From Aurantiochytrium sp. KH105 (lineage: Eukaryota > Sar > Bigyra > Thraustochytrida > Thraustochytriidae), in assembly GCA_003116975.1 (NCBI GenBank), contig BGKB01000204.1, forward strand, positions 48,008 through 112,007: a DNA stretch of 64,000 bases, given 5' to 3'. A program made the position numbers and the translations under genes. This document shows positions 261-63,829 of this stretch, piece by piece; position 1 is the stretch's first letter, and each line of letters begins with the position of its first letter. A model generated the notes under the pieces. That model was not told the DNA's origin. It ran no database searches and saw only the letters and a list, made by a program, of their open reading frames with translations.

Positions 261-600
261 GGATCGGCAGACCTGTCTCGAGATGCGCCGGACATGAGAT
301 GAGGCACGATCTCTTTCGAGGAGAAATAAAGTATCAGCAGACCTGTCTCGAGATGCGCCAAACATGAGATGAGGCACTCTTTCGAGGAAAAGCCAAGTAT
401 CAGCAGACCTGTCTCGAGATGCGCCAAACATGAGATGAAACACTCTTTCGAGTAAAAGCCAAGTATCAGCAGACCTGTCTCGAGATGCGCCAAACATGAG
501 ATGAAACACTCTTTCGAGTAAAAGCCAAGTATCAGCAGACCTGTCTCGAGATGCAACAGACATGAGATGAGACACATATCGATCTCTTTCGAGGAGAATA
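261..600. repeat. 66-bp tandem repeat array, five copies
   Basis: The core CAGACCTGTCTCGAGATGC recurs five times. The ACCT of the core lies at about 271, 341, 407, 473 and 539, so spacing is 70, 66, 66 and 66 bp. Inner copies are nearly identical, and the first and last diverge. Each copy also carries a CTCTTTCGAG block. Because 66 is a multiple of three, several frames stay open through the array, giving spurious proteins with a 22-residue repeat. The array lies just downstream of the PPOX stop in transcript sense, so it is probably 3' UTR or intergenic. Confidence 0.9.
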
Positions 601-757
601 AAAATCATCGATCGGGAGAACTGTCTGAGCCAGAGTCCTCTTTCGACTACACAGACGAGTCACTCTCGCAAATCTCCATAAAAATCATCGATCGGGAGAA
701 CTGTCTGAGCCAGAGTCCTCTTTCGACTACACAGACGAGTCACTCTCGCAAATCTCC
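601..757. repeat. 80-bp tandem duplication overlapping the PPOX stop
   Basis: Bases 601-677 are repeated without change at 681-757, an 80-bp period. The right-hand copy contains the stop and last ten or so codons of the PPOX gene (stop at 727-729). The left-hand copy therefore repeats the gene's 3' end downstream of its stop. The perfect identity implies a recent duplication. Confidence 0.92.
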
Positions 758-2190
758 CGTACCATGCGACGCGCACTCCTCACAGTGTCCGCAATGCCCA
801 CGCCATCGTAGTTGTTTCCCGTGACGCGCAGGAACGGCAGCTCCGTCGCCAGCTGCGCCCGTGCACGCGCAACCTTATCTTTATGGCCCAACGTGTATTG
901 AGGGATACAATCCGACAACACCCAGGCCCGAGTTGCGTCCGGAGCACGCTCGATTCCAAGGTGCTCGCGGACCTTTTCCTGCGCCAAGTCCACGAGCTCT
1001 TGCTCGGAGAAGCGAGCAACTTCGGGAAATTGCATGCCGCCCATCATCACCGTAAGTCCGCTCGTTCCCTTGGCAAACTGAGAAGGAAACACCTCCGAGT
1101 CATAAATCATTCCAATCACACGCTCCATTTGCGACGTCGGCACGAGATGGCCAAAGCCAGGCACGGGCAGCTGCGACATGTCGTCCCAAACAAAGTTCAC
1201 GACACCCACAGAAGAAAACGGTGTCTCTTGCGCAAGCTTGCGCAGCTCTCCACCCGTGCCCTCGGGGAGGACCTTTACCAACGCCCGAAACGGAAGCGAT
1301 GAGATCACGTGCCCATCTGCGCCTCGCTCCAGGACCTCTCCCGAAGAGAGCTCTACATCGCCATTTCGAGAAATCTTGACAATCTCTGCACCGGACTTGA
1401 GCTCGCAATGAGGGTTGCTGGCGCCGAATACTTGCGACTCGAGCTCGCGCGTCAGCCGACTCAGGCCCCCAGGAAACGACACGCCCGTCGCTTTGACGAG
1501 CGCTTGACCCTCGGCCGTTTTCACGGCGTCTTCAAGCGCAATCTCCCCGAGAGGATCCGGCAGCGAGCTGCTTCCAAAGGCACGTCGCAGCATGCCACGC
1601 ACAATCGAGCCATATTGCGACTCAAGTCCGGGAAGCAGCGGCAAGCAAGCCTGCACAGAGAGTCTTCGGATATCACCTGCAAAAATACCCTGCAAGAGAG
1701 CATCGGCAAACGTCTCTGCCACGTACGGGCTGAATCGACGAGCAAAAAAGTCGTACACGCTCTCGTCCTCGTCGCTTCCCTTGGGCACCAGCAGCGCTTC
1801 GCGCAAGCCCAAAAAGGGCAGCGGCCGCGTCAAGGGCTCGCGAAGCAATCCCGCCACGCTCGAAGGCATGCAGCGTAGCTTGCCGTTGTGCCAAATGTAT
1901 CGTGCTTTGGCCGACGCGCTCGTCGGCACAGCCTCCTTCTCCAGCCCAAGCTCCTCGAGAAGGCGAACGACGGCCGCGCCGCTCGGCCCCACGGGACGGA
2001 AGCTGTGAGGGCCTCGTTCCAGAATTGTGTCGCTATCCCGCTTCTCGGAGCAAAACCAGCCGCCCGTCTTCGCTCTCGCTTCGACTAGACGTACCGACGG
2101 CGCCGCCGCCGCGCCCGCAAAGGCCGCCGTGAGCCCGCTCACGCCGCCGCCCAGCACGACGAGGCCGCCCCTCATCTTCATGGTGCTCAT
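727..2190 (-). CDS. PPOX: Protoporphyrinogen oxidase (PPOX/HemY family)
   Basis: This FAD enzyme oxidises protoporphyrinogen IX to protoporphyrin IX, the penultimate step of haem synthesis, normally at the mitochondrial inner membrane. The 487-residue product has the N-terminal dinucleotide-binding motif GGGVSGL at about residues 13-19. It also has the family's C-terminal signature GNNYDGVGIADTV, where the related form in homologues is GNSYRGVAINDC. Length is normal for the oxygen-dependent family. The open frame extends to 2223 but begins there with TTG, so I chose the first ATG at 2190; further in-frame ATGs follow at 2181 and 2175. No clear targeting peptide precedes the FAD motif, as is common for PPOX. 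The last codons lie inside the 80-bp duplication. Confidence 0.93.
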   Translation of the reverse strand: MSTMKMRGGLVVLGGGVSGLTAAFAGAAAAPSVRLVEARAKTGGWFCSEKRDSDTILERGPHSFRPVGPSGAAVVRLLEELGLEKEAVPTSASAKARYIWHNGKLRCMPSSVAGLLREPLTRPLPFLGLREALLVPKGSDEDESVYDFFARRFSPYVAETFADALLQGIFAGDIRRLSVQACLPLLPGLESQYGSIVRGMLRRAFGSSSLPDPLGEIALEDAVKTAEGQALVKATGVSFPGGLSRLTRELESQVFGASNPHCELKSGAEIVKISRNGDVELSSGEVLERGADGHVISSLPFRALVKVLPEGTGGELRKLAQETPFSSVGVVNFVWDDMSQLPVPGFGHLVPTSQMERVIGMIYDSEVFPSQFAKGTSGLTVMMGGMQFPEVARFSEQELVDLAQEKVREHLGIERAPDATRAWVLSDCIPQYTLGHKDKVARARAQLATELPFLRVTGNNYDGVGIADTVRSARRMVREICESDSSV

Positions 2191-3800
2191 CGTGGCCGCC
2201 GAGGTCGCTCGCGTCGCTGGCAAAGGGAACGGATCTCGCGCACGTAGAGCTTGGCGGAGGGGAGAAAGGGCACGAAGCCCGCGCTTCTACTTTCGCCCTT
2301 GCACGTACCAGATGCGCGCGAAAAGGTCCGCGCGCCGCAAGAAAGATTGAACTTCTGAAATGGGTTGTCCTTTCACCTTGTGTACTACTAGTACTATACT
2401 ACAAGTAGGAGGCCGGGGCGGAGGAACAAAGTTCACGATGGAATGCAACGAGACGTCTAGTCGACTCAGAGCGGGAAGAAGGTCTGGGGTTGGAAGCTGC
2501 GGCCTATCCTTCGGATAGACTCGAGCCTAAACCCAAGGCCCTGAGGTTTTGGAGCAACGTGGAGAGGTCGGCAAGAAAAGTTCGGATGGCAAACTTGGGC
2601 AATGCAGATGTCATTCCAGCATAGCACAATTTGTTTGCAAGAGCCAATGGTAAAAACTTGAAGTATTCGTGGACAGCATTCTCTGGAAATTGTGTGCAAT
2701 GACGTCAAGAGTGAGGACAAGGGGGTAAGGGCTCGTACGTCGCCGCAAAGTAGGCTCCTGGCAAGAGTATCGAAGTCGGGCGATCGGGCGTGATCGCTTT
2801 GATGATGTTTGCAGTAAACCTCACACGGAGTGGTCGAATTTTATTCGATCAGCTGAGGCAGAGCAGCTGCCAAATCACTCTCGCGCTTTATCTTCTCGTG
2901 GGCGATGGCATGATTGATCGAACTGCCAGTTTCGCACGTAGGCCTACTTCGTTCGCATGACACATCCTGGAAAAGTTCTCTCGACGCCATCCGAAATGTC
3001 CTCGATCGACCTCCCCATCATCAATCAACAAGCGCGTGATATCCGCAAGCGTTTTGTGTGCTTTTCAGCAAGTGATAACCTCACTCGGTTCGCTTCGCGA
3101 CCTATTACCATCCCATCTCGTTGACTCGACCCCCGAAAACAAACGCTGTCGGAGGAAGGAAAGGAACTCCTCTCTCCGCGTGTATCGCCCGTCCGCATCG
3201 CGGTAGCCTGGACATGCCACGGTTCTCGGAAAGCGATTCTTTGGCTTCGGAAAGTGATTTTTCGGCTTCGGAAAGGTCTTTGCGAAACGAGTGCGCTGGA
3301 TTCACGGTTCCCATCCGCCGGCCGCTGGCAAACTTTGTCGTGGAAATGCAGCATCATCCATCCGCAGGTCTTCCGTCAAAGCGCTGGATTCCTCTGCTGC
3401 GACACGCAAGCCCGGCCCGCCCGCTCGAGCGACGTGGCCTGGCGTGGCTTAGCTTAGCTTAGCTCCGCCTGCCCTCACCGAGTCTGGCCCTCGAGCTGTG
3501 CTTTCCAGAGCGGGTTCGCGTTGCGAGTTCTAGCTCGAGCGCCTCTAGGCTTGCGTTATTCCCGACCAGCTCTTCGGCGCATCGCTTTGCTCCTCTCCAT
3601 TCCCATTTGCTTCTGCTTCAGCAGCTCCATCTCCGTCCCTGCCATCGTCGTCGTCGCAGTCGTTGTCGTCGTTGTTGCTGCTGCTGTTGCTGTTGTGAAG
3701 CGTGCGGCGCGACTTGAGAGCGAGCAGCAAAACCCCAAGCCCAAGCCCGAGCCCGAGCCCGAGCCCGAGCCGACGCCGGCCCGCGCGCGCGGGGGGCGGC
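2191..3800. other. Intergenic region, no gene recognised
   Basis: This 1.6-kb stretch separates divergent genes. Short frames on both strands show no recognisable domain. Around 3226-3280 there is a short degenerate repeat of GGCTTCGGAAAG. Around 3733-3772 there is a CCCAAG/CCCGAG hexamer tract. It probably contains both promoters and 5' UTRs. Confidence 0.5.
3733..3772. repeat. (CCCRAG)n hexamer tract
   Basis: About six hexamer units change from CCCAAG to CCCGAG. The tract lies upstream of the chosen ATG of the next gene. The same open frame would read it as a Ser-Pro repeat, but only from a GTG start. Confidence 0.8.
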
Positions 3801-12511: not shown

Positions 12512-15500
12512 TCATGATCTGTACGCAAGAGAACCAGCAGGATACCACTTCAAAAGCTCTTTCCGGGGTACTGACTCATCGTAAGGAAAGATCTCGGTCA
12601 GGATTCTCTCCACCAAATAGTCCAGATTTTCCTGAATTTTCTGTGTGCTGGATAGGTCGACCCAAATTCTGCCAACAAGATCTGGCGCACCTTGCTCGCT
12701 AATGGTCTCCGTCTCCGTCATGTGGGCTCGAATGATCGTGTCCTCCATCGAGCCAGTGTCTTTTCGATGAATTGCATAATTGTACTCGAGCTTGCAATAG
12801 TTTCTCCTGGCAGTGACTTGGAGCTTGTCCATGAAATTTGGAGTAAGACAGAACATAACGACATGGGAATCGTCAATTCCTGATGCCATCCAATCTACCA
12901 TGTTCTTCCTTTTCAGGTCCCTTCCATCAAACCAGGTACGAATACCTTCTCTTTCAAGGCACGCTGACAGGTCCCCAACGCAAGCATGATTGATCTCTTC
13001 ATGTTCGCCGGAAAAGTTGTTCCAGCTGTGTGACAAGAATACGTCTCGATCGGTTCGCATGCGAGTTTCAAATATGGCCACAGCTTTGGTCATTTCCCTC
13101 GCCTCGTCCAAGCCAATGCCTTCGTTCCAAATAAGCTTCACGAACTTTTTCAGTGTCTGCCACAGCTGCACGTCATGCTCGTGCAGCCCAAAAGCGGAAG
13201 GAGAAGCGGACTCATGTACAGCGGCTCTGGAGACATCGCGAACTCTTAGCATGCTGAGCAGGTATCTGACGGCTTCTGTGAGCATATCCCGAGGCGTGAC
13301 ATCTGTACGAGCCAGCAACGTCTTTAACGCTCTCCGAACTCGATACTTGAAAGACCACAGAGCTTCCCCTCCTTGGTGCTCCGTAGGCTCCGCAAGGGTA
13401 AGCAAAGACGAAACGGGTGCGATGCGCGTTCGTGCTACCTTCTGGACAATTTCTGAACATCCTGCGTCGATATGGCGCTGTGGTACTTCACCATATGGGC
13501 TGCTAATAATGTTGACACTGCTCAAAATCACTTCCGATTCCCGTGTGGTTTTATTCACCTGACGATGGGCAACAGACTCCAAGAGCTCACGCAGTATTCC
13601 ATACTTGCCTCCCGATGAAAGAAAGAGTTGCGTGCCCCAAGAATGCAGCTTTTGCTCTTGAAGGTACACGTCGACATGACGCAACACGACACTAAAGCTA
13701 TCAAACAATGCAAAGCGATGCGATTTATCTGATGATGAAGACCATGCTTTAATCTCGAGGCGTCCAGAACCTTGCAGGTCATATCCCTGTGCGAAGGCAA
13801 AGTACGATACGATCTCACCCTCATCCTGATTGACATCTTTGACTGTGGTGGTTCCAGTGAACCTGAACTCATCGAGAACTGAGAGGTTCTTGATCACGCG
13901 ATAGCAACGCGACGCCAGGCGTAAAAAGAGGCTCCTTGGCAGCACGAGATCGAACTCACAATGCCAATGAAGGATTGCCGAGTCTGGGCAGGGTGTGCTC
14001 GCCAAAGTCCGAGACATCTTCCGAGTATACTCGTCTTTATACACGCGAGGAAAGTTTGATTGGAACAAAAGCGGAACCATGTATTCTGTCCCAAGGTCTA
14101 GCCCGCTTGTTCGTGATGGTAATGTGAATAACAAATCGTGCTCCATGAAGAATTCCAAATACGTTTGCTTGTCGTCCCCCAAATCGCTCCACGTTTCAAG
14201 ACATTCGCTTGTCATATTTGGCCCAGTGCGCGTTCTGCAAGGGCTGATCGGAATCTGATCGAGAAGTGCATCTGTCAGCACACATTCCTGCTCAAGACGC
14301 TTTTGACCTACTTCCAACTTCTTGGCCCTTAAGTTGGCGAAGTTCGTCGGCACATTTGAGTTCCCGATCTTGTAAATTACGCCTCTTTCTCCTGTTTCCG
14401 GGTTTAAGAACAGATCGTGACGAAAGACAGAGCGCACAACGTCGACGAGCCACACGGGGTCGGTAAAAACCAAGTGAGCGAGGTTTGGATTCTGGCTGCA
14501 CCACACCACCTGCCCGAGGTCATTGAGCAGTTGCAACGCCCGTTCAAAATCCTCGTTGCCATCGAGGGAAAGGTACCCCAACGCCTTCATTTGACGTCGT
14601 ACATTTGAAACGTTACGCACGGTGACGCGCATGTCGCGCACCTTCGGCTCACGGGGCAGCACATGGTCAAAGAGCATATTGCGAAGCGCGACATACGGTT
14701 TGGGCAGGCGCAATGCGATACGATACTTCGGGTCGCAGGTAAACGTATGAAGCATATTGTAGAGATCTTCAACGCCATCAGGGGTCTCGTTACTCAGGAT
14801 GAATGATTTCTTCAGAGGTGCGAAGGTCATTTCGCAAAGCGCTCGAAGTCCGCGTCGAAGCACGGCTACTCTATCCATAATTTTTCGAAGCCGGTCCTCT
14901 GAACTTGGACCGGCGAAAGACTTGGATACTAGATCAGATTTAGTCCCAACAATGACCAAATGCACTCGAGATGTTTGGACAGCCAGAGCGCGAAGCCAGC
15001 GCCCCGCAGTATTCTCGAAGTATTCGTCAGAATCCCTGTATGCGTTGAGGTCCATTACGAGCACGACGAGGCTTCGACTTGAAATAAAGAGAGAGTGGGT
15101 CATGTAATACTCTTGCTGTCCACCAAAATCCCAAAGCGATACCTCCCCGGGAATCGTCCCATGGCCGCCGGTATCGAACTTTAGCTTCCGGATGTCCACG
15201 CTAATCGTCGCGCGATCAGGGCCTTTCATCGTCAAGTCTGAAGTCATACCTTTCGAAGCAAGACAATTTGCTAAACTTGTCTTGCCGGAGCCCTGTGGAC
15301 CCACGAGAAGGACCCTGAGTTGCGCAAGCGAGCTCGTACCATTTGCTAGATCATTGAAATACTTGCGTACGACAGCAAGACCAGAATACAATATTTCCTC
15401 GGGTATATCCACCACAGCTTCCGTTCTACGTCTTTGGCATTCCTGAGCGTAGCTTTGTGCTATCGAGTAGAGTTTATCATTGCAGGCGACGCGCTTACAA

Positions 15501-16720
15501 TCAGGTCTGAGAATAGCGAGTGCAACAGACCCTTCCTTGGTGTTTCCGCTGAAATCGAGGCGTTCGAATGAAGAGTTTTTCACTAACGCATTCGCCAGGG
15601 CTCTGCTCCCTTCAGCGCCAATCGAATTCTCTCCAAGATCCAGCGACTTCAAGGCTCTTGCGTCGGCGATCGCTTTCGCCAGGCAAACGGCCCCCTTTGA
15701 GCGAATCTTGTTATCGTGTAAGCTCAAAATTTGAAGTGATTCATTGTATGTAAGAGCGTCCGCCAGCGCTGCAGAACCTTTGTCATCAATACCATTAGAC
15801 CGAAGATCGAGCTCGAGAAGAAATTGATTCACCTTTAGCGCCTCCCCAAGTGACTTCAAGGCGCCGTTGCCGTTGTCAGTGCCGATGCCAGTGCGTCCAA
15901 GACGAAGTGTGTGCAGCGATCCGTTCCATTTCAGCGCGGCTGCCAATGCTATCACCCCCTCATCACCAAGTGCATTCCCACAAAGAGAGAGCAGCTGCAG
16001 CGAATTATTCCTCGCGAGGGTCAACCCAGAACCGGATCGGGCCCACGATGTAAGAAGATATTGTGTTGACCTTTTCGTAGCGAGCGCGAGCGCAAATGCC
16101 TTTGCACCGACATTCGAAATGCCACAGTGATCAAGAAAGAGCTCTTTTAGCGAATCTTTCATATATATCACGTGGGCAAATGATTTTGCTCCCTCGTCCT
16201 TGATCCAGGTATGGCAAAGGCAAAGCGTATGCAATGAGTCATTGGCCATGGAAAACTCCGCAAGTGCTTTGGCGCCATCCCGAGAAACCCAATTGGGCCG
16301 CACATCAAACTCAAATTTGTCCTGTAATGAAGAATCTGGGTTGCTCAAGTCGATACTTTCCAGCGATCGATTCTGCATGAGAGCCTGCACAAGATCCTTG
16401 GTGCCTGTGTCGCTAATCCCAGTGGCTTTGAAACAGAGTCTTTTCAGTGTCTGGTTTTCCTTAAGCGCATCTGTCAGCCACATAACTCCATTGTCTCCAA
16501 TAAATGTAAATGCTGCGTCGATTTCCTCCGTTACGTCATCTTCGATCAAATCACGAATCTCCTCTACTTCATCACTTTCGAATATTTCGTGCTCAATTTC
16601 GTGCTCAATTTCGCGCGCACGTTTTTCATGCGTTGTCACAGGCGACGGCGCGCCACCGCTCGACAGATCCGCGAGCGACGCTGCTTGGTCAGCAACAAAG
16701 GAATCGGAAGCAAGCGGCAT
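12512..16720 (-). CDS. LRR-Roc-COR-TIR protein (ROCO family)
   Basis: This is a 1402-residue signalling protein. About residues 60-430 hold RanGAP/NLR-type leucine-rich repeats of 28 residues (units such as LDLRSNGIDDKGSAALADAL). A Roc GTPase domain follows, with P-loop GPQGSGKT near 471, switch DFGGQQEY near 528 and base-recognition TKSD near 590. Next come a COR region (about 650-1100) and a TIR domain at about 1225-1365, starting DVFLSHSW. The TIR keeps a Glu in NYCKLEYNYA (about residue 1312), at the place of the catalytic Glu of NAD-cleaving TIRs. Family knowledge says Roc-COR modules are dimerising GTPase switches, and TIRs either scaffold or cleave NAD. The role in stress or self/non-self sensing is inference. 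Start is the ATG at 16720 because the longer frame begins with TTG. Confidence 0.9.
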   Translation of the reverse strand: MPLASDSFVADQAASLADLSSGGAPSPVTTHEKRAREIEHEIEHEIFESDEVEEIRDLIEDDVTEEIDAAFTFIGDNGVMWLTDALKENQTLKRLCFKATGISDTGTKDLVQALMQNRSLESIDLSNPDSSLQDKFEFDVRPNWVSRDGAKALAEFSMANDSLHTLCLCHTWIKDEGAKSFAHVIYMKDSLKELFLDHCGISNVGAKAFALALATKRSTQYLLTSWARSGSGLTLARNNSLQLLSLCGNALGDEGVIALAAALKWNGSLHTLRLGRTGIGTDNGNGALKSLGEALKVNQFLLELDLRSNGIDDKGSAALADALTYNESLQILSLHDNKIRSKGAVCLAKAIADARALKSLDLGENSIGAEGSRALANALVKNSSFERLDFSGNTKEGSVALAILRPDCKRVACNDKLYSIAQSYAQECQRRRTEAVVDIPEEILYSGLAVVRKYFNDLANGTSSLAQLRVLLVGPQGSGKTSLANCLASKGMTSDLTMKGPDRATISVDIRKLKFDTGGHGTIPGEVSLWDFGGQQEYYMTHSLFISSRSLVVLVMDLNAYRDSDEYFENTAGRWLRALAVQTSRVHLVIVGTKSDLVSKSFAGPSSEDRLRKIMDRVAVLRRGLRALCEMTFAPLKKSFILSNETPDGVEDLYNMLHTFTCDPKYRIALRLPKPYVALRNMLFDHVLPREPKVRDMRVTVRNVSNVRRQMKALGYLSLDGNEDFERALQLLNDLGQVVWCSQNPNLAHLVFTDPVWLVDVVRSVFRHDLFLNPETGERGVIYKIGNSNVPTNFANLRAKKLEVGQKRLEQECVLTDALLDQIPISPCRTRTGPNMTSECLETWSDLGDDKQTYLEFFMEHDLLFTLPSRTSGLDLGTEYMVPLLFQSNFPRVYKDEYTRKMSRTLASTPCPDSAILHWHCEFDLVLPRSLFLRLASRCYRVIKNLSVLDEFRFTGTTTVKDVNQDEGEIVSYFAFAQGYDLQGSGRLEIKAWSSSSDKSHRFALFDSFSVVLRHVDVYLQEQKLHSWGTQLFLSSGGKYGILRELLESVAHRQVNKTTRESEVILSSVNIISSPYGEVPQRHIDAGCSEIVQKVARTRIAPVSSLLTLAEPTEHQGGEALWSFKYRVRRALKTLLARTDVTPRDMLTEAVRYLLSMLRVRDVSRAAVHESASPSAFGLHEHDVQLWQTLKKFVKLIWNEGIGLDEAREMTKAVAIFETRMRTDRDVFLSHSWNNFSGEHEEINHACVGDLSACLEREGIRTWFDGRDLKRKNMVDWMASGIDDSHVVMFCLTPNFMDKLQVTARRNYCKLEYNYAIHRKDTGSMEDTIIRAHMTETETISEQGAPDLVGRIWVDLSSTQKIQENLDYLVERILTEIFPYDESVPRKELLKWYPAGSLAYRS

Positions 16721-17274
16721 CTTCGTCCAGACTGGCGTCGTCGTTCTCGTCCAACGTCCTCGTTGCTTCGCTCGGGTTCTTATTGCGCTCTCAACCTTCA
16801 ACTCCGTGGGCCGGACCGGCGCAAAAAGTTGAGCCTTCGTGTAGAGCCTACGCGGTGTCTAGCTATAGCCGCCCGGGCGAACGCTGCACGCGCGGTCGCT
16901 CCGCGGGTCGCAGTCGTTCGTCGCTTCGTTCGATCTTTGCCATCGTAGCCCCAATACCACCAATTATTTGTTCTTAGTAAAGTCCAGTATGAGGTTGTTT
17001 CTCTTGTAAACATTCTTGTTTCCGAGCACCTGCGAGAGATGGTGCGTGGAAAACGCGCAGCGCGACATTTTGCGTTGTCCACACGAAGCTCTCGAGCGCC
17101 AGAACGAGATCATCGATCTCCGCCGGCGAGGGCTACGTGGACGCGGACGTAGAAAGCCGTCGTCGCGGGCCGGCCGAGGCGTCTCGAGGACGGGCCCCGA
17201 GCTCTTGCGGAGAGAAAGACAAAGGTGCTCTGAGGACCGCCTGTGCGAGGGGACGAGTGAAAAGAGAAGAGAAG
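16721..17274. other. Divergent promoter region, ROCO and HtrA
   Basis: About 550 bp lie between the two start codons, including 5' UTRs. I see no clear operator or repeat. Open frames extend into it from both genes but without an ATG in good context. Confidence 0.5.
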
Positions 17275-43410: not shown

Positions 43411-46400
43411 ATGGCCGGCAAAGTCGTGCAAACAACAGGCGTGGTGCTATGGGAGCGCAAGGATATCTGGGAGGTCACGAACGCCACGGGTCTCGTGGCG
43501 GCCATCATCGTAACGCTCGTGCTCTATATTATTATCATGATCATCATGGCGAAAACGAGGTTCCGATGGTGGATGCTGCCTCCAGTAATTACCGCAAGGA
43601 GAAAGTGGCTCATGCCATGGATTGACGTCAGAGACCGCGGCGCGAGCAGTTTACGCACTCTGCACTACAGCATCATCGCCTGGAAGGGTGTCGTCAAGGC
43701 CCTCCTTGCGGCGCTCGCTGTCAGTGTCGCACTTATGCTCTACTATTCGTCCTCAGATAGCGTTTGGGGCAACTTTCGCCAGAAACCGCTGGCACTCGTC
43801 TCCCTGGGGCTCTACCTGCTCACCGTAATCGCGCTGGTCTTGTTCTGGAAAACAAACCTATGGAACATCTCGATGCAGATCCGCGTGCTCTCCTTTGTGC
43901 CGCTCTCGCTCAATCTCATGGACACGAAAGGGCATTCGTGGTGGGCACCCCAAGAGGCTCGCGAAAAGGTATTGCGCCAAGTTCTTGCCATCCTCATTTC
44001 CCTCGGGCTCATCTTCGTCACAATTACGAATCTCTTCCTCATCCCCTTCGGCGAGTGCGAGGGGGAGGACATTGCGTGGATGTTCTCAGAATGCAACAAA
44101 ACTTGGACCTCGCACACGCGCGCGGCGCATGATAACTACATGCAAGACGCGACCTGGCACGTGGGGTCAAACTGGATCTTCATCCTTTTCAACTCAATCT
44201 TTGTCATCATGACTGCTTTCCTCATCGACCTCTACGTCCACGCGGGCGTTGACCTCGTCGTAGAGGTTCAAACACGCGTTGCCCAAAGTCTCATGCGTTA
44301 TGGCGTCAATGCACACCAAATTGCCATGGCGGCAACTGAGACCGACGACGCCACCGGGTCGCTCGCGAGCGCGCGCGACATCGATACACAGCTCAATGAG
44401 CGAGCCCCCACCGCGCAGGAGCGCGTCGACGTACTCATGAACATGGACAGTCCTCGCGAAGACAGTCTGGTGCGCGCGTCTTCGAGCCTTAACAACGACG
44501 ACGAAGACAGGACAAGCGACGCCGAAGACCGCAAAGGCGGCACACACAGCAACGATAATGATGGCAATGCATCGCCTCACATCAAGAAGGCGGACTGGGA
44601 CGCGCTCCCCGGAATCAACGCCCCAATACGCGTGCCACTTTCGAGCCCTGACGGCCGCGAACTCATCGACAAAGAACTCGCGCGTGCGTATAAGATTCTC
44701 AAAAACTTTGTTTGGAAACAAATGGGCGACATGCCGGGTCTGCAGCGCGGCGATGCAGCGGTGACCATCGAGGGTATTGCAAGGCAAGAGTCGCTGCACA
44801 GGTCTGTCGACAAGTCTCGACCACCAGCGCGCGTAATTCGAGCCGCGAAACCGTTTAGCGAACAAAACTACATGGACAAGCTGCTGCATGCCTACATGGG
44901 TATTTTGCGCGCTGGCATGATGATTTCATATGGAGCTTCCGTAACGGTGCTCCTGATGCACGCCGTGCTTCATCTCGTTCTCACGCAACGCACCGTGGCG
45001 TTTTTTCAGGCCGTCGGCATCCTTATGACCGATTCGATTCTCCTGCTCAGGTTTGCGGAAAGTACGAAGATGCGCACCAAAGTCCAAGCCAGCTCGCGCT
45101 ATGCGCGCATAAGCCGTGCCAAACCTTGGCATATTGCCACCATATCGCTCTTGTCACGCATCGTGCTCGTAAGTGTTCCCAGTGACGCCTGGTTTATTGG
45201 CCAGGCGTGTCTTTACACCATCGCAAGTATCTATCTGGGCCGAGGTCTTGCCTCAGAGTATATGTCGAAAAAGTCCACGGGCGGGACGGGCCGCAGAACT
45301 GTTTTGCGCGCAGTTCGCCGTGTCCGCGGCGTTGGATCCCTCTTTCGGGTTCTATGGCTCTCGAGCATCGTGTTTCTGCGCGAAATCCTCTTTGCTGTGT
45401 TTCTCATTTACTTTGGAGGGCTCACGTGGCTGCTGAGCTCGCCAACGCTGGACAATGCCATGCGACTCGGCGTGCAAGAGAACAATGGGGGCTATGTTAC
45501 CATCTGGATCCTTGAGGATGCCGTCCCGCAATACAAAATTGGCGTGCTGGCTTTGCTCATCGTTTGCAACTTTTGCGCCGGCTTTCTTGCTTGGCACTAT
45601 TGGCTGCGAATTCGGGGTAAGCGGCCTCTACACGTGTTAAGCAACCTGCGCCTTGCTACGCAAGTCCTGCTCACATTTTCGGGTGTTCTGGCGCTTGCTA
45701 TTTACAGTGCATACTTCATCTCGTATGATATGTTCGCCAAGTCCGAGAAGTTCTCCATTTTTGGCACCGTCGCAACAATGCTTCCCGTGACGTTCGTCGC
45801 CGTGTACGTGCACGAGATCTGGGTGCGCGATGACTTTCGCTATTGGCATCCGCTTCCCAAGCGCGTTATTCTACCAGCGAGCGCAGAGCCCTACGACGAG
45901 CACACCATTAAGTTGCGCAACTATGCGGCCAAGGTCAAGGCCGCGCGCCAGCTCATCTGGCGTCGCAACGCAGTCGTGGTGGCCGGCTCCCTTTTCGTAA
46001 TTTCAGGTTTTGCAGCCTGGGGCGCCTCTCTTGCCTACGAGATTGAGGATCTTGACACAGAGTTTGCCATTCTCTTTCCCTGTGCAACCTTTGCTCTCCT
46101 TTGCGGCGTTCTTGGCGCCAAACTCTGGTTCAATACGCTCCAAGTCTCGAGTGGTCTCGTGTTCTTCTTTGCGCTGCTCGTGTCCACAATGTTGGCATCC
46201 TACGTTGTGGGTCTCGAGGAGGTCATTACCTCACGCGGCACCGCCTACAATGACTTCCTCGATGTCATTGGCTTCTTCCTGCTTCTCGTCCCTGTCTTTA
46301 TCACCGGTGTTGGTTCTATGCTCGTTTTCCGCGATGAGCACTTCAAGCTTAACTGGTTTGTTGTAGCGGCTGCAACCTCGTGCCTACTGATCTTGCTGGG

Positions 46401-49400
46401 ACTCGGCTCTTGGTTTGCGATCCGTTTCTCTGCTTTTGCCGCCATTTTCTACTACCTGTGTCTGGTCATTGTCTTTGTGCTGGCATGTATCTGGCTGTGG
46501 TGGCATTCCTCGCGCATCGACAGCGACAAGAGTCTGCGCCCGACGCGTCGTTGGCTCTGGGTCGTTGTCGTCTTTGTGATCGTACTTTGCGCGCTCGGTG
46601 CGTGGGATCTCGGGACGCAGCAAAGCGTCATCATTGCTGACGTCTCGGACCCTCTGTATGGTGTGAGCTACTTCCTCGTTGCGTATGCCCTGGCGTTTGT
46701 CTTCACGACCGTCTTCATTCTCAGTATTAACCGTGATCTGGTACGCAAGTCAACACGTCTCTCCCCTGCGCCTTCATTGCTTGGGCTTCCGGCTATTGCC
46801 TTCAAAGTGGAAAATCGTGGAGGCGAGCTTTACAAGTACAACAGTCCGGTTCTCTGGGTCATTGGTGTGCTCTTTTCACTGCAGCTTCTGGGCTTTAGCA
46901 TTACCTGGACCGTGCAGCCCAATGCGGGCATTTCCATGACTTCCGTGGCCATTTGCCTACTTGAGATCTACGCGCTGCACATGTCCGTGGAGCGGTCGCT
47001 TCATTTTCGCAGCAATTTGCTCGAAATTGATGATGTCTCCGAGCTTGACACCATCTTTGAGCGCATTTTGCGCGAATCTGTCGATCGCTGTCTGCAGATT
47101 TCCCAGCAGGCAATGATGGCGTCCTGGCTTCAGATCCGCCGGCCGCGCCTCGACGAAACGAACGAAGGCGAAGCGGCCTCGCCGCGCAAGGGGGCTGAGG
47201 GGGCGCAACAGTCTCGGAAAAAGAACCGTTTTTGGAAAAGCAAGCGACGGCGGATGCGTTCGCCTCGCTCTTTCCTGAGGGCCGAGAGTCAGATTCCCAC
47301 GACATCTGCTCCAGGAAAGGCACGTCTCGTTCCACTTGTATCCAAGTCGATGCCAGGCTTGTCACGACCGACCTTTCCCTCGACAAGCCCGAGTACTGTG
47401 GAAGCGGGCCAATTTGGGTCCAGTTCGTCGCTGAATAGGCCGCAGGGTGAAACAGACGACCAGAGTGCTGGCGAAGTAAGAGCAGACGATGACATCGGGG
47501 AGGAGCAGCACTTTGATGAAGTTGACGCGGACGCGGACGCGTCCGCGGAAGAGAATGAGGATGAGGAACAAGATGAAGAGCAAGAGGGCGAGGAGACCAT
47601 TATCAGCAACGCTAAGGCGCTCGTTGAATACTACGATTCCGTCGCAGAATGTGACGCCGAGTACGAGCGGTTCCTTCATGATGGCTGCAAGTATGATGCT
47701 CTCTTCAATGTGCTATTTTGGATGCGGACAACGCAGGTTGTGCTGGAACAGCGAGCGACATGCAAACGTGTCGTTTGGACGCCGCTTACGTCAACGCACG
47801 GTGGAGATAGCGTGAGCACCGGTTCGGGGAGCTCTGGGCGTGGTGCGCTTCAGATAAGACACTCGAACTCGCATGCCTCGCCGGAAGATGCTGGAATCCT
47901 CGATGATACGCGCAAGGTCATTCCTCCGAGCGCGCTCGGAAGCCATTCACACGCTGAACGAGTGCCCTACATGGGCAACTCGACACCGTATCGGCTACCG
48001 TCTCTGGAGGTCAACATCACAAACATCAGTTCCTCACAAGAGCACATCTCTTGCGATGCAAGTGTGCCTTCGGCTCCCGCATCGCTTGCAAAGTCTATCG
48101 ATCAGTCAACAGCTACTCAGGCGCCGTCGACGTCGTCGAATTCGCCCGCGACCTCCTTGTCCACGCTCAAGAATCTCAAGTTCTGGAAAGGGGGTCGTGG
48201 TCCATTGCGCGCTGCGTCGAGACGATCGTCTTCGACCGTCGCGCGAACTGCCGCCGATCTTCGCAATGCTGGCCGCCTGCGCTTGGCGCAGACGGTGAGT
48301 AATCGAAAAGGATTGATTGCCAGTCAATATGAGCGGCACGCAGCACCCCATGAGAGCCCATGCGATCAGCAACAGCAACAGCACCACCATCAGTACTCTC
48401 GTGGTGGCCTGCGCACGAATAGCGAGCTCAATGTCCTCTCTCATGAGTGGAAGCACCTCGACGACGATATGGTGTGGACGCAGTTGCAGTCGATTGTTCA
48501 GCATAGCGGACGATGGAGCGACCCCGAGTTCCCAGCCACGAACGCGAGCTTGTTCCTTGACTGGAATGACGAAGATTACGAGGAATATCTGGACGACCTT
48601 GACGAGGATGACATTCGCGGAGCCGTGTGGTGCCGACCAAGCGAGTTTCTTCCCAATGAAGTGGCGCGAGTGATGAACCTTTCTCTTTGCGTGAAGCCCT
48701 CTGAAAACGTATATGATCCAACGGAGGTCCTCCAAGGCGGAACAGGCGACTGCTGGCTCTTGAGTGCAATGTCCGTGGTCGCGCTTTTCCCGCGTCTGCT
48801 CGACGATGTGGTGGTGACCAAGCACGTTGCCGAAAAGGGGATTTACCATGTGCGACTCTTTCTGGACGGCAAGTGGGAGAATATTCTCATTGATGACCGG
48901 TTCCCGTGTTCGCTTGAACAGAGTCTTGAGTTTGATCCAAACGATGAGTCTAAATCTCTTCGATTAAGTGATAGGCCTCCAGATATCGTGCTCAAGCGCC
49001 CGCACGACGACTACGATCCCAACGAAGTGCGCCGTCTACCCTTACCGCAGTACTGTCGTTCGCGAACAGGCAATGTGCTGTGGCCAATGCTTATTGAAAA
49101 GGCGTATGCAAAGCGTTTTGGTTCGTATGAGGCGCTCAATGGTGGTCACGTTCACTCGGCGCTCGTAGACCTCACGGGTGGCCTTTCGCAGGTGTTTGCT
49201 TTGCACGAGGACGTCGAAGTTGTCATGTCCGGTGCACTTTGGGACAAGCTCCTCGAGTTCAAGAGTCGCGGAGCATTGCTTGCCGCTGGATCGCCAGCGC
49301 CACCGATGGGAGACTCGAACCAATTTGCGGATGGCCAGCTCGCCACCGATCGTAATGGCATCGTTCACGGGCACGCATATTCTATCGTGGATGTGATGGA

Positions 49401-50373
49401 CGAGTCAGATTACAATGGCAAGCACAAGCTGCTGCGGTTACGCGACCCATGGGGCATCTCGCGTTGGAACGGGCCGTGGTCTCGCAAGGATCGCAAACGC
49501 TGGACGCGACGAATGCAGCGCCGTCTCAAGTACGAGGTGGATGCGGCCTCGCGTGTTGACGGCCTGCGCGAAATTTTGACCCAAATGGAAAGCGAAGACG
49601 ACGCCAACGAAGACCCTCTCGGATCGCTGCCCACAGGCTTCGAGTCGGACAACACGTCGAGACCTTTTGGATCCCCTGAGGAGGGTGACTTTTGGATCTC
49701 GCTCGAGGACTTTGTGGCCCGATTCCAATGGCTATACGTGTGCCAGATTTTCGACAAGGAAAAGTGGGTGCATCGATCCATCAGCGACGAGTGGAAGGGT
49801 TTTACCGCGGGCGGCCCGCCGAATCAACCGGGCGCTTACTACAATCCGCAGTATGGCTTTCGACTACAGGAGTCTGCGGCGCGAAAGCTTGCGCCGCACC
49901 GTGCTCTGGGGTGCGGTTCAGGGAAGCTCGAGACTGTCACAGTCTTTTTCTCCATCTCCAATCTTCAAGAGTCACAGTCGAGTCATTATCGGAGCAGTGG
50001 CCCCTTGGGCGAGACGGACAGTGGCGTTTTTTCCGGTGAGCCGACGGGAATTGATCCTTTTGGTCAATATGAAGATGCTGCTCGTGAGAGCGGGCGAATT
50101 TACCCGTTTATGTCTCTTCTTCTCCTCAATATTGATGGGAAGCGGCTTAATGGAGAGCTAGCTGCCAATTCTGTGGTGGCAAGCACGGGCAAGTACAAGG
50201 ATTCGCGGGATCTCTCGTTTGAGACAAAGCTTCCTTGCACGTCAGACATTACGTACACGATTTTCCCCTCGCTCTTTCCGCGAGGCAAAGAGGGTGCTTT
50301 TCGCATCAACATATACTGTGAAACGGGCTTTGAACTTTTTCGACTGCCCATGGACGAATCTGCAATTGCTTAA
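43411..50373 (+). CDS. DEK1-like multi-spanning membrane calpain
   Basis: The 2320-residue protein has the layout of plant DEK1 (phytocalpain). The N-terminal two-fifths (about 25-1210) contain some 22 hydrophobic helices, interrupted by a long charged loop (about 290-490). A disordered acidic and Ser-rich linker follows (about 1250-1690). The calpain protease core starts near 1740, with Cys1781 in GGTGDCWLLSA and His1988 in GHAYSIVDV. The third active-site motif reads LRLRDPWGISRWNGPW, so residue 2012 is Asp where calpains have Asn. A calpain beta-sandwich (domain III/C2L-like) occupies about 2140-2315. In plants DEK1 controls cell fate and wall orientation and may respond to mechanical stress. 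Its job here is unknown. Start ATG at 43411 in AACAATGG context; no intron. Confidence 0.9.
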   Translation: MAGKVVQTTGVVLWERKDIWEVTNATGLVAAIIVTLVLYIIIMIIMAKTRFRWWMLPPVITARRKWLMPWIDVRDRGASSLRTLHYSIIAWKGVVKALLAALAVSVALMLYYSSSDSVWGNFRQKPLALVSLGLYLLTVIALVLFWKTNLWNISMQIRVLSFVPLSLNLMDTKGHSWWAPQEAREKVLRQVLAILISLGLIFVTITNLFLIPFGECEGEDIAWMFSECNKTWTSHTRAAHDNYMQDATWHVGSNWIFILFNSIFVIMTAFLIDLYVHAGVDLVVEVQTRVAQSLMRYGVNAHQIAMAATETDDATGSLASARDIDTQLNERAPTAQERVDVLMNMDSPREDSLVRASSSLNNDDEDRTSDAEDRKGGTHSNDNDGNASPHIKKADWDALPGINAPIRVPLSSPDGRELIDKELARAYKILKNFVWKQMGDMPGLQRGDAAVTIEGIARQESLHRSVDKSRPPARVIRAAKPFSEQNYMDKLLHAYMGILRAGMMISYGASVTVLLMHAVLHLVLTQRTVAFFQAVGILMTDSILLLRFAESTKMRTKVQASSRYARISRAKPWHIATISLLSRIVLVSVPSDAWFIGQACLYTIASIYLGRGLASEYMSKKSTGGTGRRTVLRAVRRVRGVGSLFRVLWLSSIVFLREILFAVFLIYFGGLTWLLSSPTLDNAMRLGVQENNGGYVTIWILEDAVPQYKIGVLALLIVCNFCAGFLAWHYWLRIRGKRPLHVLSNLRLATQVLLTFSGVLALAIYSAYFISYDMFAKSEKFSIFGTVATMLPVTFVAVYVHEIWVRDDFRYWHPLPKRVILPASAEPYDEHTIKLRNYAAKVKAARQLIWRRNAVVVAGSLFVISGFAAWGASLAYEIEDLDTEFAILFPCATFALLCGVLGAKLWFNTLQVSSGLVFFFALLVSTMLASYVVGLEEVITSRGTAYNDFLDVIGFFLLLVPVFITGVGSMLVFRDEHFKLNWFVVAAATSCLLILLGLGSWFAIRFSAFAAIFYYLCLVIVFVLACIWLWWHSSRIDSDKSLRPTRRWLWVVVVFVIVLCALGAWDLGTQQSVIIADVSDPLYGVSYFLVAYALAFVFTTVFILSINRDLVRKSTRLSPAPSLLGLPAIAFKVENRGGELYKYNSPVLWVIGVLFSLQLLGFSITWTVQPNAGISMTSVAICLLEIYALHMSVERSLHFRSNLLEIDDVSELDTIFERILRESVDRCLQISQQAMMASWLQIRRPRLDETNEGEAASPRKGAEGAQQSRKKNRFWKSKRRRMRSPRSFLRAESQIPTTSAPGKARLVPLVSKSMPGLSRPTFPSTSPSTVEAGQFGSSSSLNRPQGETDDQSAGEVRADDDIGEEQHFDEVDADADASAEENEDEEQDEEQEGEETIISNAKALVEYYDSVAECDAEYERFLHDGCKYDALFNVLFWMRTTQVVLEQRATCKRVVWTPLTSTHGGDSVSTGSGSSGRGALQIRHSNSHASPEDAGILDDTRKVIPPSALGSHSHAERVPYMGNSTPYRLPSLEVNITNISSSQEHISCDASVPSAPASLAKSIDQSTATQAPSTSSNSPATSLSTLKNLKFWKGGRGPLRAASRRSSSTVARTAADLRNAGRLRLAQTVSNRKGLIASQYERHAAPHESPCDQQQQQHHHQYSRGGLRTNSELNVLSHEWKHLDDDMVWTQLQSIVQHSGRWSDPEFPATNASLFLDWNDEDYEEYLDDLDEDDIRGAVWCRPSEFLPNEVARVMNLSLCVKPSENVYDPTEVLQGGTGDCWLLSAMSVVALFPRLLDDVVVTKHVAEKGIYHVRLFLDGKWENILIDDRFPCSLEQSLEFDPNDESKSLRLSDRPPDIVLKRPHDDYDPNEVRRLPLPQYCRSRTGNVLWPMLIEKAYAKRFGSYEALNGGHVHSALVDLTGGLSQVFALHEDVEVVMSGALWDKLLEFKSRGALLAAGSPAPPMGDSNQFADGQLATDRNGIVHGHAYSIVDVMDESDYNGKHKLLRLRDPWGISRWNGPWSRKDRKRWTRRMQRRLKYEVDAASRVDGLREILTQMESEDDANEDPLGSLPTGFESDNTSRPFGSPEEGDFWISLEDFVARFQWLYVCQIFDKEKWVHRSISDEWKGFTAGGPPNQPGAYYNPQYGFRLQESAARKLAPHRALGCGSGKLETVTVFFSISNLQESQSSHYRSSGPLGETDSGVFSGEPTGIDPFGQYEDAARESGRIYPFMSLLLLNIDGKRLNGELAANSVVASTGKYKDSRDLSFETKLPCTSDITYTIFPSLFPRGKEGAFRINIYCETGFELFRLPMDESAIA

Positions 50374-61408: not shown

Positions 61409-63829
61409 ATGCGGTCACGTTCGTTCGCTGTAGCTTTCGCGCTGCTGCTCACCGCGACGCCTGCGACAGCTCTGCGCGCGGACCCGCTCGTCGATTCGTG
61501 CGCTCGAGGTGAGGCAAACTGCTGCTTTCCGGAGTCGAAATGGCCAAAACCAACCATGGAATCGCGCTTTCGTTGCGCACCAGACGAGGATGGGAGCTAC
61601 CCTTGCAGCGTCAGGCTCGCTGTCAGCGACTGGATTGGGAGCTTTATCAACGTCTACGTTGCCAAGATCTTCATCGAGGAGTTCCTCGGGTATCCCGTCG
61701 AAATCACGGCCGATTCCAGCGACTACACGGGGACTATTAGGGAGTCAGATGTTTACGCGGAAAATGGGACGTTGGTTGAGCCGAGCGGTTGGAGACTCCT
61801 CGAGAGCGGAGACGTCGACGTCATTCTCGAATACTGGCCTTCGGGACATCGAGATAATATTCGCGAGTTCGTTGTGGAACGCGGGACCGTGAAGACGGCC
61901 GGCGAAAATGGAATTGAGGGCCGAATCGGATGGTTCATGCCCTCGTTCGTGGGCGAAGACAATGACCCGGCTCTCGACTACTGGCGTACGCTCACCGACC
62001 CGGCCAAAGCGAGTCTCTTTCCTCATCCGGCGGCGACCACGCCTTGCTGTCGTTCCGATATGGACCAAGGTGCCAACGCTCCTTGTGTCCCAACGGAGGC
62101 TCTGGGTGGCACGAAAGTGGCAGATGGAGGCATGGCCAATGCGATGGACGAGTGTGACGCCGTGTCGGCCACGGCGTGGCACGAGATTCCGACCACGGGA
62201 GGGCGCTTTCTGGGAGCACAGCCGACTTGGACTCACCATGATGATCAGATTATTCGGAACCTGGGTCTGCCTCTCACTCTCGTCTTTGCGGGCTCCGAGG
62301 AGAAAATCTTGGAGGAGATTGAGACTGCCCACACGTCAAGAACACCGCTCTTGTTCTATTTCTGGAAGCCGCACGGCGCCTTTCGCATGTACGACTTCGA
62401 CGACTTTCTGCTGCCGCTCAGCAGCGCGGAATGTCGATCGGCGCAGATAACTGGTGACGCCAACTGCGGGTACCCGATTGAGCTGCTTGCTAAGGCATAC
62501 TCGGTATCATTGGAGCAAAGTAAGCCAGATGTGGCACACTTTGTTGGCGCCATGGTGTTCAACTCGACTGTGCAGCAAGAAGAGATCCACTATGAGCTCT
62601 TGGTCAACAGTTCGCGGACGCTGAACGAAGCAGCTTGTGAGTGGGTCAAGATCAACGAGCACACCTGGACGGATTGGACAGAGAGCGTTGTGCGCCAGTA
62701 CGAAGGCGAAGTATGGCAAGATGAGGTTCTCGAGCCAACGGTCGTGGCTTGCGACTGCAAACCCAATGGTCTGCGTGATGTCGTGGCCGTGTACGATACT
62801 TCTGCGTATGCTGAGGACGGCTCTGTGATTATCGAGGTGGATCCGAGCCCATGCTCGGAGGCACGCAATGTGTCGCTGTACAAGACCCGCTGGAGCACGA
62901 TGCTGCTGGAGACCGAGGTGCTCAAGGAGATCCAGTGCGCTCATGTACCACTTGGGAGCTCTGGTGAGATCATCATTCTAACGTTGGCTTCCATCGCATG
63001 GCTCGTGCTCTTGATTTGCCTGGTGTTCGTCGTGGCGTATCGCAGCCACAAGGCGGTGAAGAGCGCTCGCATCCGTACGCTCATGATTCTCTTGTTTGGC
63101 GCAGCGCTGATGAACGGAGCAGAGACGTCTCAAATTGGCGAGCCAACGCGTGTCAAGTGTGCGATGCGCTTTTCGCTGCTGCTCTTTGGCTTCATGTACT
63201 TTGTGGGATCGCTTCTCATCAAGCAGTTCGTCATTGCTTCGGTCATGAAGCGTGCGCAAAAGTTGGATCGGCGCAAGAAGAAGGGCGGTCAGGTGTTCAT
63301 GAGGTTTGAGTTTACGATCTGCACGCTCGTGGCTCTTGCTCTTCTTGCCATCTGGTACGCAGTCGTGGGCTTTGAGCCCGAAGCGGTGGTCGCAGACGTG
63401 CTGCTGGACGTCGACGAGCTCGTGTGTCCGACGGACTCGACGCTGCTAATGCTCATCATTGCCGTGTGCTACTTGCTGATTGTTGTGAGCTGCGTGCTCG
63501 CGAGCCAGACGCGAGGTCTTTCGGGGCTGGTGTTCAACGAGGGCAAGTTCATGTTGTTTTCAAACTACAATGTGGCTGTGTTGACGGGTCTCTCGCTGTT
63601 TGTGACGCTTTCCCCGGGCATGGACGCCTCGCTGAAGAGCCTGTTCGTTTCATTTTGCATTCTCTTCAGTACGGTGTCGTGCGCGCTTTTGGTGGTTGGC
63701 TCGCGCGTGTATGCAGCTGGCTTCAATATCAACGCAACGCTTCTCGCAACAGCCACCACTACTGCGCCAGTCACCCAGCGTGGCTCGGCCGCTGCAAGTT
63801 CAGTAGTTGGGACGACAGTTGCAAAATAG
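61409..63829 (+). CDS. Glycine-betaine-binding protein/class C GPCR fusion receptor
   Basis: The 806-residue protein starts at ATG 61409 with a signal peptide (MRSRSFAVAFALLLTATPATA). Residues about 45-515 resemble bacterial OpuAC/ProX-type quaternary-amine binding proteins. The evidence is SDWIGSFINVYVAKIFIEEFLGYPVEI-type opening text, ESGDVDVILEYWPSGH and LLFYFWKPHGAFRMYDF, with the aromatic residues such proteins use for a betaine cage. Cys residues and N-glycosylation-type NST/NSS sites fit an extracellular domain. Seven hydrophobic helices follow at about 521-780. Between helices 5 and 6 lies FNEGKFMLFSNYNVAVLTG, matching the class C (GABA-B-like) motif NESKYIxxSxYNVAVL. The longer frame from 61241 would bury the signal peptide. 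A role sensing betaine-like osmolytes is inference. Confidence 0.85.
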   Translation: MRSRSFAVAFALLLTATPATALRADPLVDSCARGEANCCFPESKWPKPTMESRFRCAPDEDGSYPCSVRLAVSDWIGSFINVYVAKIFIEEFLGYPVEITADSSDYTGTIRESDVYAENGTLVEPSGWRLLESGDVDVILEYWPSGHRDNIREFVVERGTVKTAGENGIEGRIGWFMPSFVGEDNDPALDYWRTLTDPAKASLFPHPAATTPCCRSDMDQGANAPCVPTEALGGTKVADGGMANAMDECDAVSATAWHEIPTTGGRFLGAQPTWTHHDDQIIRNLGLPLTLVFAGSEEKILEEIETAHTSRTPLLFYFWKPHGAFRMYDFDDFLLPLSSAECRSAQITGDANCGYPIELLAKAYSVSLEQSKPDVAHFVGAMVFNSTVQQEEIHYELLVNSSRTLNEAACEWVKINEHTWTDWTESVVRQYEGEVWQDEVLEPTVVACDCKPNGLRDVVAVYDTSAYAEDGSVIIEVDPSPCSEARNVSLYKTRWSTMLLETEVLKEIQCAHVPLGSSGEIIILTLASIAWLVLLICLVFVVAYRSHKAVKSARIRTLMILLFGAALMNGAETSQIGEPTRVKCAMRFSLLLFGFMYFVGSLLIKQFVIASVMKRAQKLDRRKKKGGQVFMRFEFTICTLVALALLAIWYAVVGFEPEAVVADVLLDVDELVCPTDSTLLMLIIAVCYLLIVVSCVLASQTRGLSGLVFNEGKFMLFSNYNVAVLTGLSLFVTLSPGMDASLKSLFVSFCILFSTVSCALLVVGSRVYAAGFNINATLLATATTTAPVTQRGSAAASSVVGTTVAK

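Follow-up and report, generated by a model that had tools for sequence, protein, structure and literature searches.

In the class C G protein-coupled receptors GABA-B, mGlu and CaSR, a ligand domain of the ANF_receptor family (PF01094) is joined to a seven-helix domain (7tm_3), and the class features named in the relevant passages of PMC3727952 include a cysteine pair between TM3 and extracellular loop 2 (ECL2) and a PK motif in TM7. Class C receptors with a non-ANF ligand domain are also known: mGlyR and GPR179, which are metazoan, have the order Cache-EGF-7TM (PMC12716839, in the sections used here), Cache being unrelated in kind to the type II binding proteins, and PBP1, 5-nucleotidase C and Cache 1 domains were reported for diatom receptors (excerpts of PMC3727952). 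Nearest in design to the gene described here are the receptors listed in the available portion of Krishnan 2012 (PMC3251606), where OpuAC (PF04069) stands in the N-terminus of six 7tm_3 receptors of the glutamate family from Allomyces macrogynus, and PBP_like_2, SBP_bac_1, LysR_substrate and BMP appear in other non-animal receptors. The Allomyces proteins are fungal and known from Pfam annotation, with no pocket analysis in that portion, and are compared here by description only. OpuAC was absent from section 9 and the main text, in the form available, of a 2025 eLife survey of glutamate receptors of animals and their relatives (PMC12716839). Among the matches listed from open-licence full-text literature, no other published OpuAC-bearing class C GPCR was found beyond Allomyces; a non-exhaustive search of open-licence literature gave no eukaryotic receptor for betaine, DMSP, TMAO or choline among its listed matches.

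On the bacterial side, TmoX (PDB 4XZ6) and DmpX (PDB 7YLE) are soluble partners of ABC transporters and carry no 7TM part. In the sections consulted of the respective papers, the pocket of TmoX is formed by W55, W102, F106, E131, W177, F220 and W222 (PMC8918994), and that of DmpX by W35, T64, W84, E113, W152, A153, Y200 and W202, with the exchanges Y200A and Y200F abolishing DMSP binding (PMC10030565).

Given the Allomyces precedent, as excerpted, the combination of OpuAC with a class C 7TM domain is not new; what the present genome adds is a larger number of copies, another architecture and a pocket that can be read. A preliminary description of this DNA had held that known class C receptors use a flytrap domain of the amino-acid-binding type. 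Set against the excerpted Allomyces OpuAC receptors (PMC3251606) and several other ectodomains in this genome, that statement was too strong.

Gene structure and seven-helix domain

The window, i.e. the whole stretch of 64,000 nucleotides that was analysed, stops at the end of contig C204, 171 bases beyond the end of the gene of interest. This gene, at 61409-63829 of the plus strand, is a single open frame of 806 codons plus stop with no internal stop. The frame is open upstream as far as 61226, a hydrophobic leader follows the ATG at 61409, and no splice is required to read through both domains. The features are as follows.

61409..63829 (+): whole coding sequence (806 aa), OpuAC-type ectodomain fused to class C 7TM; single open frame, both Pfam domains above cut-off, seven further full-length genome copies of 48-96% identity
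61409..61474 (+): hydrophobic N-terminus, probable signal peptide, residues 1-22; judged by eye from the translation
61607..62677 (+): OpuAC / quaternary-amine binding-protein domain, residues 67-423; bacteria-only HMM, AF2 ectodomain model and Foldseek
62006..62197 (+): insert of ~64 residues with four cysteines between the two HMM pieces, residues 200-263; gap between HMM pieces, mostly low AF2 confidence
62678..62959 (+): linker of ~94 residues with four cysteines from the binding domain to TM1; no NCD3G match (Pfam)
62966..63697 (+): class C seven-helix domain (7tm_3), residues 520-763; Pfam E 8.9e-30, PDB phmmer GABA-B2 E 1.4e-7, seven helices in a low-confidence full-length model
63158..63160 (+): C584 at the start of TM3, candidate class C disulfide pair with C673 (63425-63427); both invariant in eight of eight copies, role according to passages of PMC3727952
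63698..63826 (+): end of TM7 and short tail, varying among copies; comparison of copies

The preliminary description had read an OpuAC-type binding domain and a class C 7TM from one frame and had proposed an HMM check for both families. This reading was borne out: 7tm_3 (PF00003) scored 104.6 bits (cut-off 33.5) and OpuAC 59.9 bits (E 3.8e-16; cut-off 21.2), the latter in two stretches of which the best covered residues 263-414. No other family, and neither ANF_receptor nor NCD3G, was found in a Pfam search of the protein with E-values up to 10. The choline-binding protein model TIGR03414 of NCBIfam matched with E 1.8e-6 and 27.5 bits, far under its curated cut-off of 379.05. In a phmmer search of the PDB the best chain was 4XZ6 (E 1.3e-9), with GABA-B2 and metabotropic glutamate receptors next. 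All motifs quoted earlier were located in the translation: SDWIGSF at residues 73-79, SGDVDVILEYW at 133-143, FYFWKPHG at 316-323 and NEGKFMLFSNYNVAVL at 710-725. The signal peptide claimed at that stage can be kept as probable, the hydrophobic leader being present and its nature having been judged by eye.

Assignment of the membrane part to class C likewise agrees with the 7tm_3 score, with the quoted motif and with seven helices in the full-length model (519-545, 554-575, 579-622, 629-653, 677-701, 711-734 and 740-784). Confidence in this part of the model was low for want of aligned relatives in that region, and the 50 matches listed from a PDB structure search with the full-length model were binding proteins only. 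E711 and K713 are invariant in all eight genome copies, within a stretch that reads NEGK in six of them and REAK in two. As in GABA-B, mGlu and CaSR, a ligand domain precedes a 7tm_3 domain with candidate TM3-ECL2 cysteines. Unlike these receptors, the window protein lacks ANF_receptor, NCD3G and the TM7 PK motif; residues 764-766 are GSR, and GSR or GTR is found in the copies.

Two further long frames of the window are recorded here. A frame of 1429 codons on the minus strand (12512-16801) combines LRR, Roc, a COR-A match below cut-off and TIR_2, an unusual mix; a frame of 2320 codons on the plus strand (43411-50373) includes, on its C-terminal side, a calpain domain (Peptidase_C2, E 1.6e-61).

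The ectodomain and its predicted pocket

A profile of 50 actinobacterial binding proteins matched the window frame along the entire length of the profile, with E 3.8e-47 and 156.7 bits. The match consists of two pieces (profile positions 1-110 and 121-276 of 276) that flank the insert. The 50 proteins were taken from 80 kept loci, the others being omitted because of stretched or uncertain ends or by choice. Among 2000 shuffled versions of the window protein, two gave a match at E <= 10, the best with 2.5 bits, and only one other window frame of at least 60 aa was listed at E <= 1 (E 0.73).

Searching plasmids by tblastn with residues 53-450 yielded 41 records, 25 of which covered at least 80% of the query; the best came from Nonomuraea (E 2e-20), and identities were 21.5-24.6% in the best 15 of the 41 rows. 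When prokaryote genomes were scanned with an alignment of receptors only, 88 pattern matches were obtained and none was confirmed. With one Nonomuraea protein added, picked for its best E-value among the 41 plasmid records that the window ectodomain alone had retrieved, the scan gave 346 relatives, and the best 80 of these were kept as a set that is biased towards the added protein. One scan of a viral collection with a full-length alignment gave 46 pattern matches, none of them confirmed. Two of the 80 loci were examined for neighbours (L067 and L083, from Streptomyces and Streptosporangium), and in both a ChoXWV/ProW-type permease adjoins the gene.

An AF2 model of the ectodomain, made with an alignment of 51 rows whose bacterial members contributed to its shape, had a pLDDT of 74.1 and a pTM of 0.74; residues 51-72 and 157-207 of the construct were poorly predicted. 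In Foldseek searches with this model the closest structure was TmoX with TMAO (E 4e-19, TM 0.86 by target), followed by DmpX with DMSP, ChoX with choline, and then ProX and OpuAC with betaine. By title, 46 of the 50 chains listed are binding proteins of the ProX/OpuAC, choline, TMAO, DMSP or ergothioneine type or sensors built from them. The predicted fold is thus that of a binding protein, as the preliminary description had supposed, and by profile and model the ectodomain is a bacterial-type binding protein over its whole length.

Unrooted trees of 30 rows, or of 28 after removal of two long ones, placed the receptors, the actinobacterial proteins and the alphaproteobacterial proteins in one group each; the rows were picked (14 actinobacterial, 10 or 9 alphaproteobacterial), and a three-group tree of this kind cannot show sisters. 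Small group profiles scored the window gene at 144.6 bits (10 alphaproteobacterial rows) and 139.6 bits (10 actinobacterial rows), a tie. The sole feature that ties the receptor to the actinobacterial set is a pocket signature, Ile at 173 plus Tyr at 317.

The pocket positions, each assigned by sequence alignment, are listed below; at ~20-30% identity, such equivalences express the alignment and not cage geometry.

61631..61633 (+): cage residue W75 (TmoX W55, DmpX W35)
61835..61837 (+): cage residue W143 (TmoX W102, DmpX W84)
61925..61927 (+): I173, replacing the ligand-contacting glutamate (TmoX E131, DmpX E113)
62228..62230 (+): cage residue W274 (TmoX W177, DmpX W152); Y in the fourth tandem copy
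62357..62365 (+): Y317 (DmpX Y200, TmoX F220), F318 and cage residue W319 (TmoX W222, DmpX W202)

An aromatic cage had been expected in the ectodomain, and the alignment indicates that the four-tryptophan cage of TmoX and DmpX is kept in the window protein together with Y317. The cage aromatics are identical among the eight genome copies except for the change of W to Y at 274. In the 50 aligned actinobacterial relatives, W75, W143, I173 and Y317 are identical in every case; at position 274, 41 have Y and nine have F, and at position 319, 45 have Y and five have W. The pocket glutamate, which hydrogen-bonds TMAO in TmoX and, via water, DMSP in DmpX, is replaced by I173 and the cage tryptophans are retained, so that the polar contact would differ from that in the two bacterial proteins. 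As judged from the aligned residues, it is well supported that the kept cage points to a ligand of the quaternary ammonium or sulfonium class; since the glutamate is an isoleucine here, the alignment does not fix the exact ligand. No earlier report of cage and pocket evidence for an OpuAC-7TM receptor was found in the literature searched.

Copies of the gene and other class C receptors in the genome

The genome comprises 76.0 Mb in 367 contigs and, from paired matches, looks like two haplotypes. The OpuAC-7TM frame was found in eight copies on three contigs, one of which is 492 kb long, with the same fusion in all: four copies stand in a row on C34, the window gene occupies the end of C204, and the other three lie close to the start of C258. 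The copies on C204 and C258 are probably the other haplotype relative to C34. The window gene shares 96% identity with its partner on C34, 86-89% with the copies that come next and 48% with the fourth pair.

Both halves of the gene are under purifying selection as protein. Relative to the 96% partner, dS and dN were 0.206 and 0.025 in the ectodomain and 0.088 and 0.008 in the 7TM part (dN/dS ~0.12 and ~0.09, respectively); relative to the fourth C34 copy (48%), they were 1.93 and 0.46 in the ectodomain and 1.57 and 0.54 in the 7TM part. Between the apparent haplotypes at C34 and C204/C258, a dS of ~0.09-0.21 is high for alleles and may reflect a hybrid or a very diverse diploid.

All 10 Pfam OpuAC matches in the genome lie within the eight frames that also hold a 7TM, and no free-standing OpuAC protein was found at the sensitivity of this search. 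Fused to a 7TM as it is, the window protein is not a soluble ABC-transporter partner.

The genome has 69 matches to 7tm_3. Twenty of these frames, one per apparent allele pair, were scanned for other domains, many of them truncated at locus borders ~500 residues upstream of the 7TM. Three were of OpuAC type (L005, L007 and L056). The other 17 comprised (i) four with ANF_receptor; (ii) one with Phosphonate-bd (E 7e-26); (iii) one with PBP_like_2 (27.0 bits, exactly at cut-off); (iv) one with sCache_2; and (v) 10 with no other domain above cut-off, some perhaps through shortened frames at locus borders.

A second, longer type of OpuAC-like receptor was found on C3 and C19, with frames of 1680 and 1728 codons in open-frame length; the loci are L056:1719-6758 (+) and L055:3-4631 (-). 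Its ectodomain is diverged, matching the bacterial profile with E 2e-13 and Pfam OpuAC with E 0.024 only, and it is absent from the list of Pfam OpuAC matches of the genome. Further modules are EGF-like, 7tm_3 (E 1.4e-11), a weak SAM (E 0.059) and WW under cut-off (22.1 vs 26.9 bits). The alignment places serines at the counterparts of Y317 and W319, so the ligand of this type probably differs from that of the window gene.

L054 (C70:337500-342500; frame 585-3560, minus strand) joins a phosphonate-type binding domain to a class C 7TM (7tm_3 E 6.9e-14). Its Phosphonate-bd match and that of a second copy on C181 were the only two in the genome, and no class C receptor with such a domain was found among the matches listed from literature joining phosphonate and GPCR terms. 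Cache was matched on a class C 7TM in L019 on C66 (sCache_2, E 3.5e-6) and, below cut-off, in L025 on C92; the sections seen of PMC12716839 report no Cache among the non-metazoan receptors screened. In a tree of 21 seven-helix domains, keeping the four OpuAC rows as one group cost 4.59 log units (p-AU 0.217), a result compatible with either one origin or two of the OpuAC-7TM pairing within this genome.

These ectodomains may be parts of a chemosensory system built from modules, in which a single type of 7TM signalling unit is combined with various sensor domains of bacterial type (OpuAC, phosphonate-binding, PBP_like_2, ANF and Cache). The OpuAC arm with its kept tryptophan cage would then be the receptor by which a eukaryotic cell senses, at its surface, methylated osmolytes that are taken up by marine bacteria, namely betaine, DMSP, TMAO and choline. 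We give this wider proposal an even chance.

Proposed function and alternative explanations

For the window gene itself we favour, as probable, a plasma-membrane class C GPCR whose flytrap ectodomain is a quaternary-amine binding protein of bacterial type and which acts as a cell-surface chemoreceptor for an external methylated osmolyte. It builds on the single frame with both domains, the predicted fold, the cage kept in the alignment, purifying selection on both halves and the tandem family. A small methylated onium compound from outside (glycine betaine, choline, TMAO, DMSP or a close relative) would sit in the tryptophan cage and close the two lobes of the ectodomain; closure would be passed via the cysteine-bearing linker to the seven helices and then to heterotrimeric G proteins. 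The genome contains 27 G-alpha matches above cut-off. Two of the G-alpha frames, C245:49750-50781 and C314:13060-14091, carry one in-frame TGA on both contigs, which may be an intron or mark a pseudogene.

The receptor would probably serve in chemosensing of osmolytes that leak from food, decaying matter and neighbouring cells, beside uptake by BCCT-family betaine/choline/carnitine transporters, which occur as a tandem of three per haplotype (E to 2e-106). This BCCT tandem lies on C143 and C77 at about 217600-240800, and its third gene is split between two frames on C77.

That the receptor is a direct osmosensor, reporting ambient salinity by way of an osmolyte, was the use suggested in the preliminary description. 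PUFA-synthase-like pieces, the best with 930 bits against a cut-off of 1010, fit a thraustochytrid, of which we take such genes to be a mark; assignment to the stramenopiles is plausible. Glycine betaine is a principal compatible solute of thraustochytrids according to the title of Jakobsen 2007, cited in PMC5794333. The binding domain would nevertheless face outside and so read an external solute, whose level need not track salinity, and no osmoregulation gene was named near the window gene among the nine scanned of the 21 window frames of at least 350 aa. We therefore prefer sensing of food or neighbours, which fits at least as well as following salinity, and consider a salinity gauge quite unlikely. 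A different doubt concerns the pocket, since the ectodomain may no longer bind a betaine-like compound and may instead take another ligand, such as ergothioneine or some other solute, or serve as a silent partner subunit like GABA-B2. The change from Glu to Ile, the difference between tandem copies at 274, the serines of the distant long receptor, the ergothioneine-binding chains among the Foldseek matches and GABA-B2 as the best PDB match of the 7TM all point that way. Against this stand the constancy of the other cage aromatics in all eight copies, purifying selection on the ectodomain and the fact that the same Ile occurs in every actinobacterial relative aligned, the two checked adjoining permeases of quaternary-amine type; we consider loss of betaine-like binding unlikely.

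The position of the gene so close to a contig end could suggest that two adjoining genes, a misassembly or bacterial contamination was read as one protein. An artefact of this sort is very improbable, as the same fused frame recurs in eight copies on three contigs including one of 492 kb, both halves are under purifying selection, and the reading frame crosses the junction without a splice.

Betaine, DMSP, TMAO and choline rank among the major currencies of marine microbial life. The chemoreceptor proposed here would be a concrete candidate for a eukaryotic osmolyte receptor; its pocket can be read, its tandem copies can be compared and structures of bacterial relatives are solved, so that its ligand binding is directly testable. 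The gene also shows that the ligand domain of class C receptors can come from other binding-protein families, a point relevant to the origin of this receptor class.
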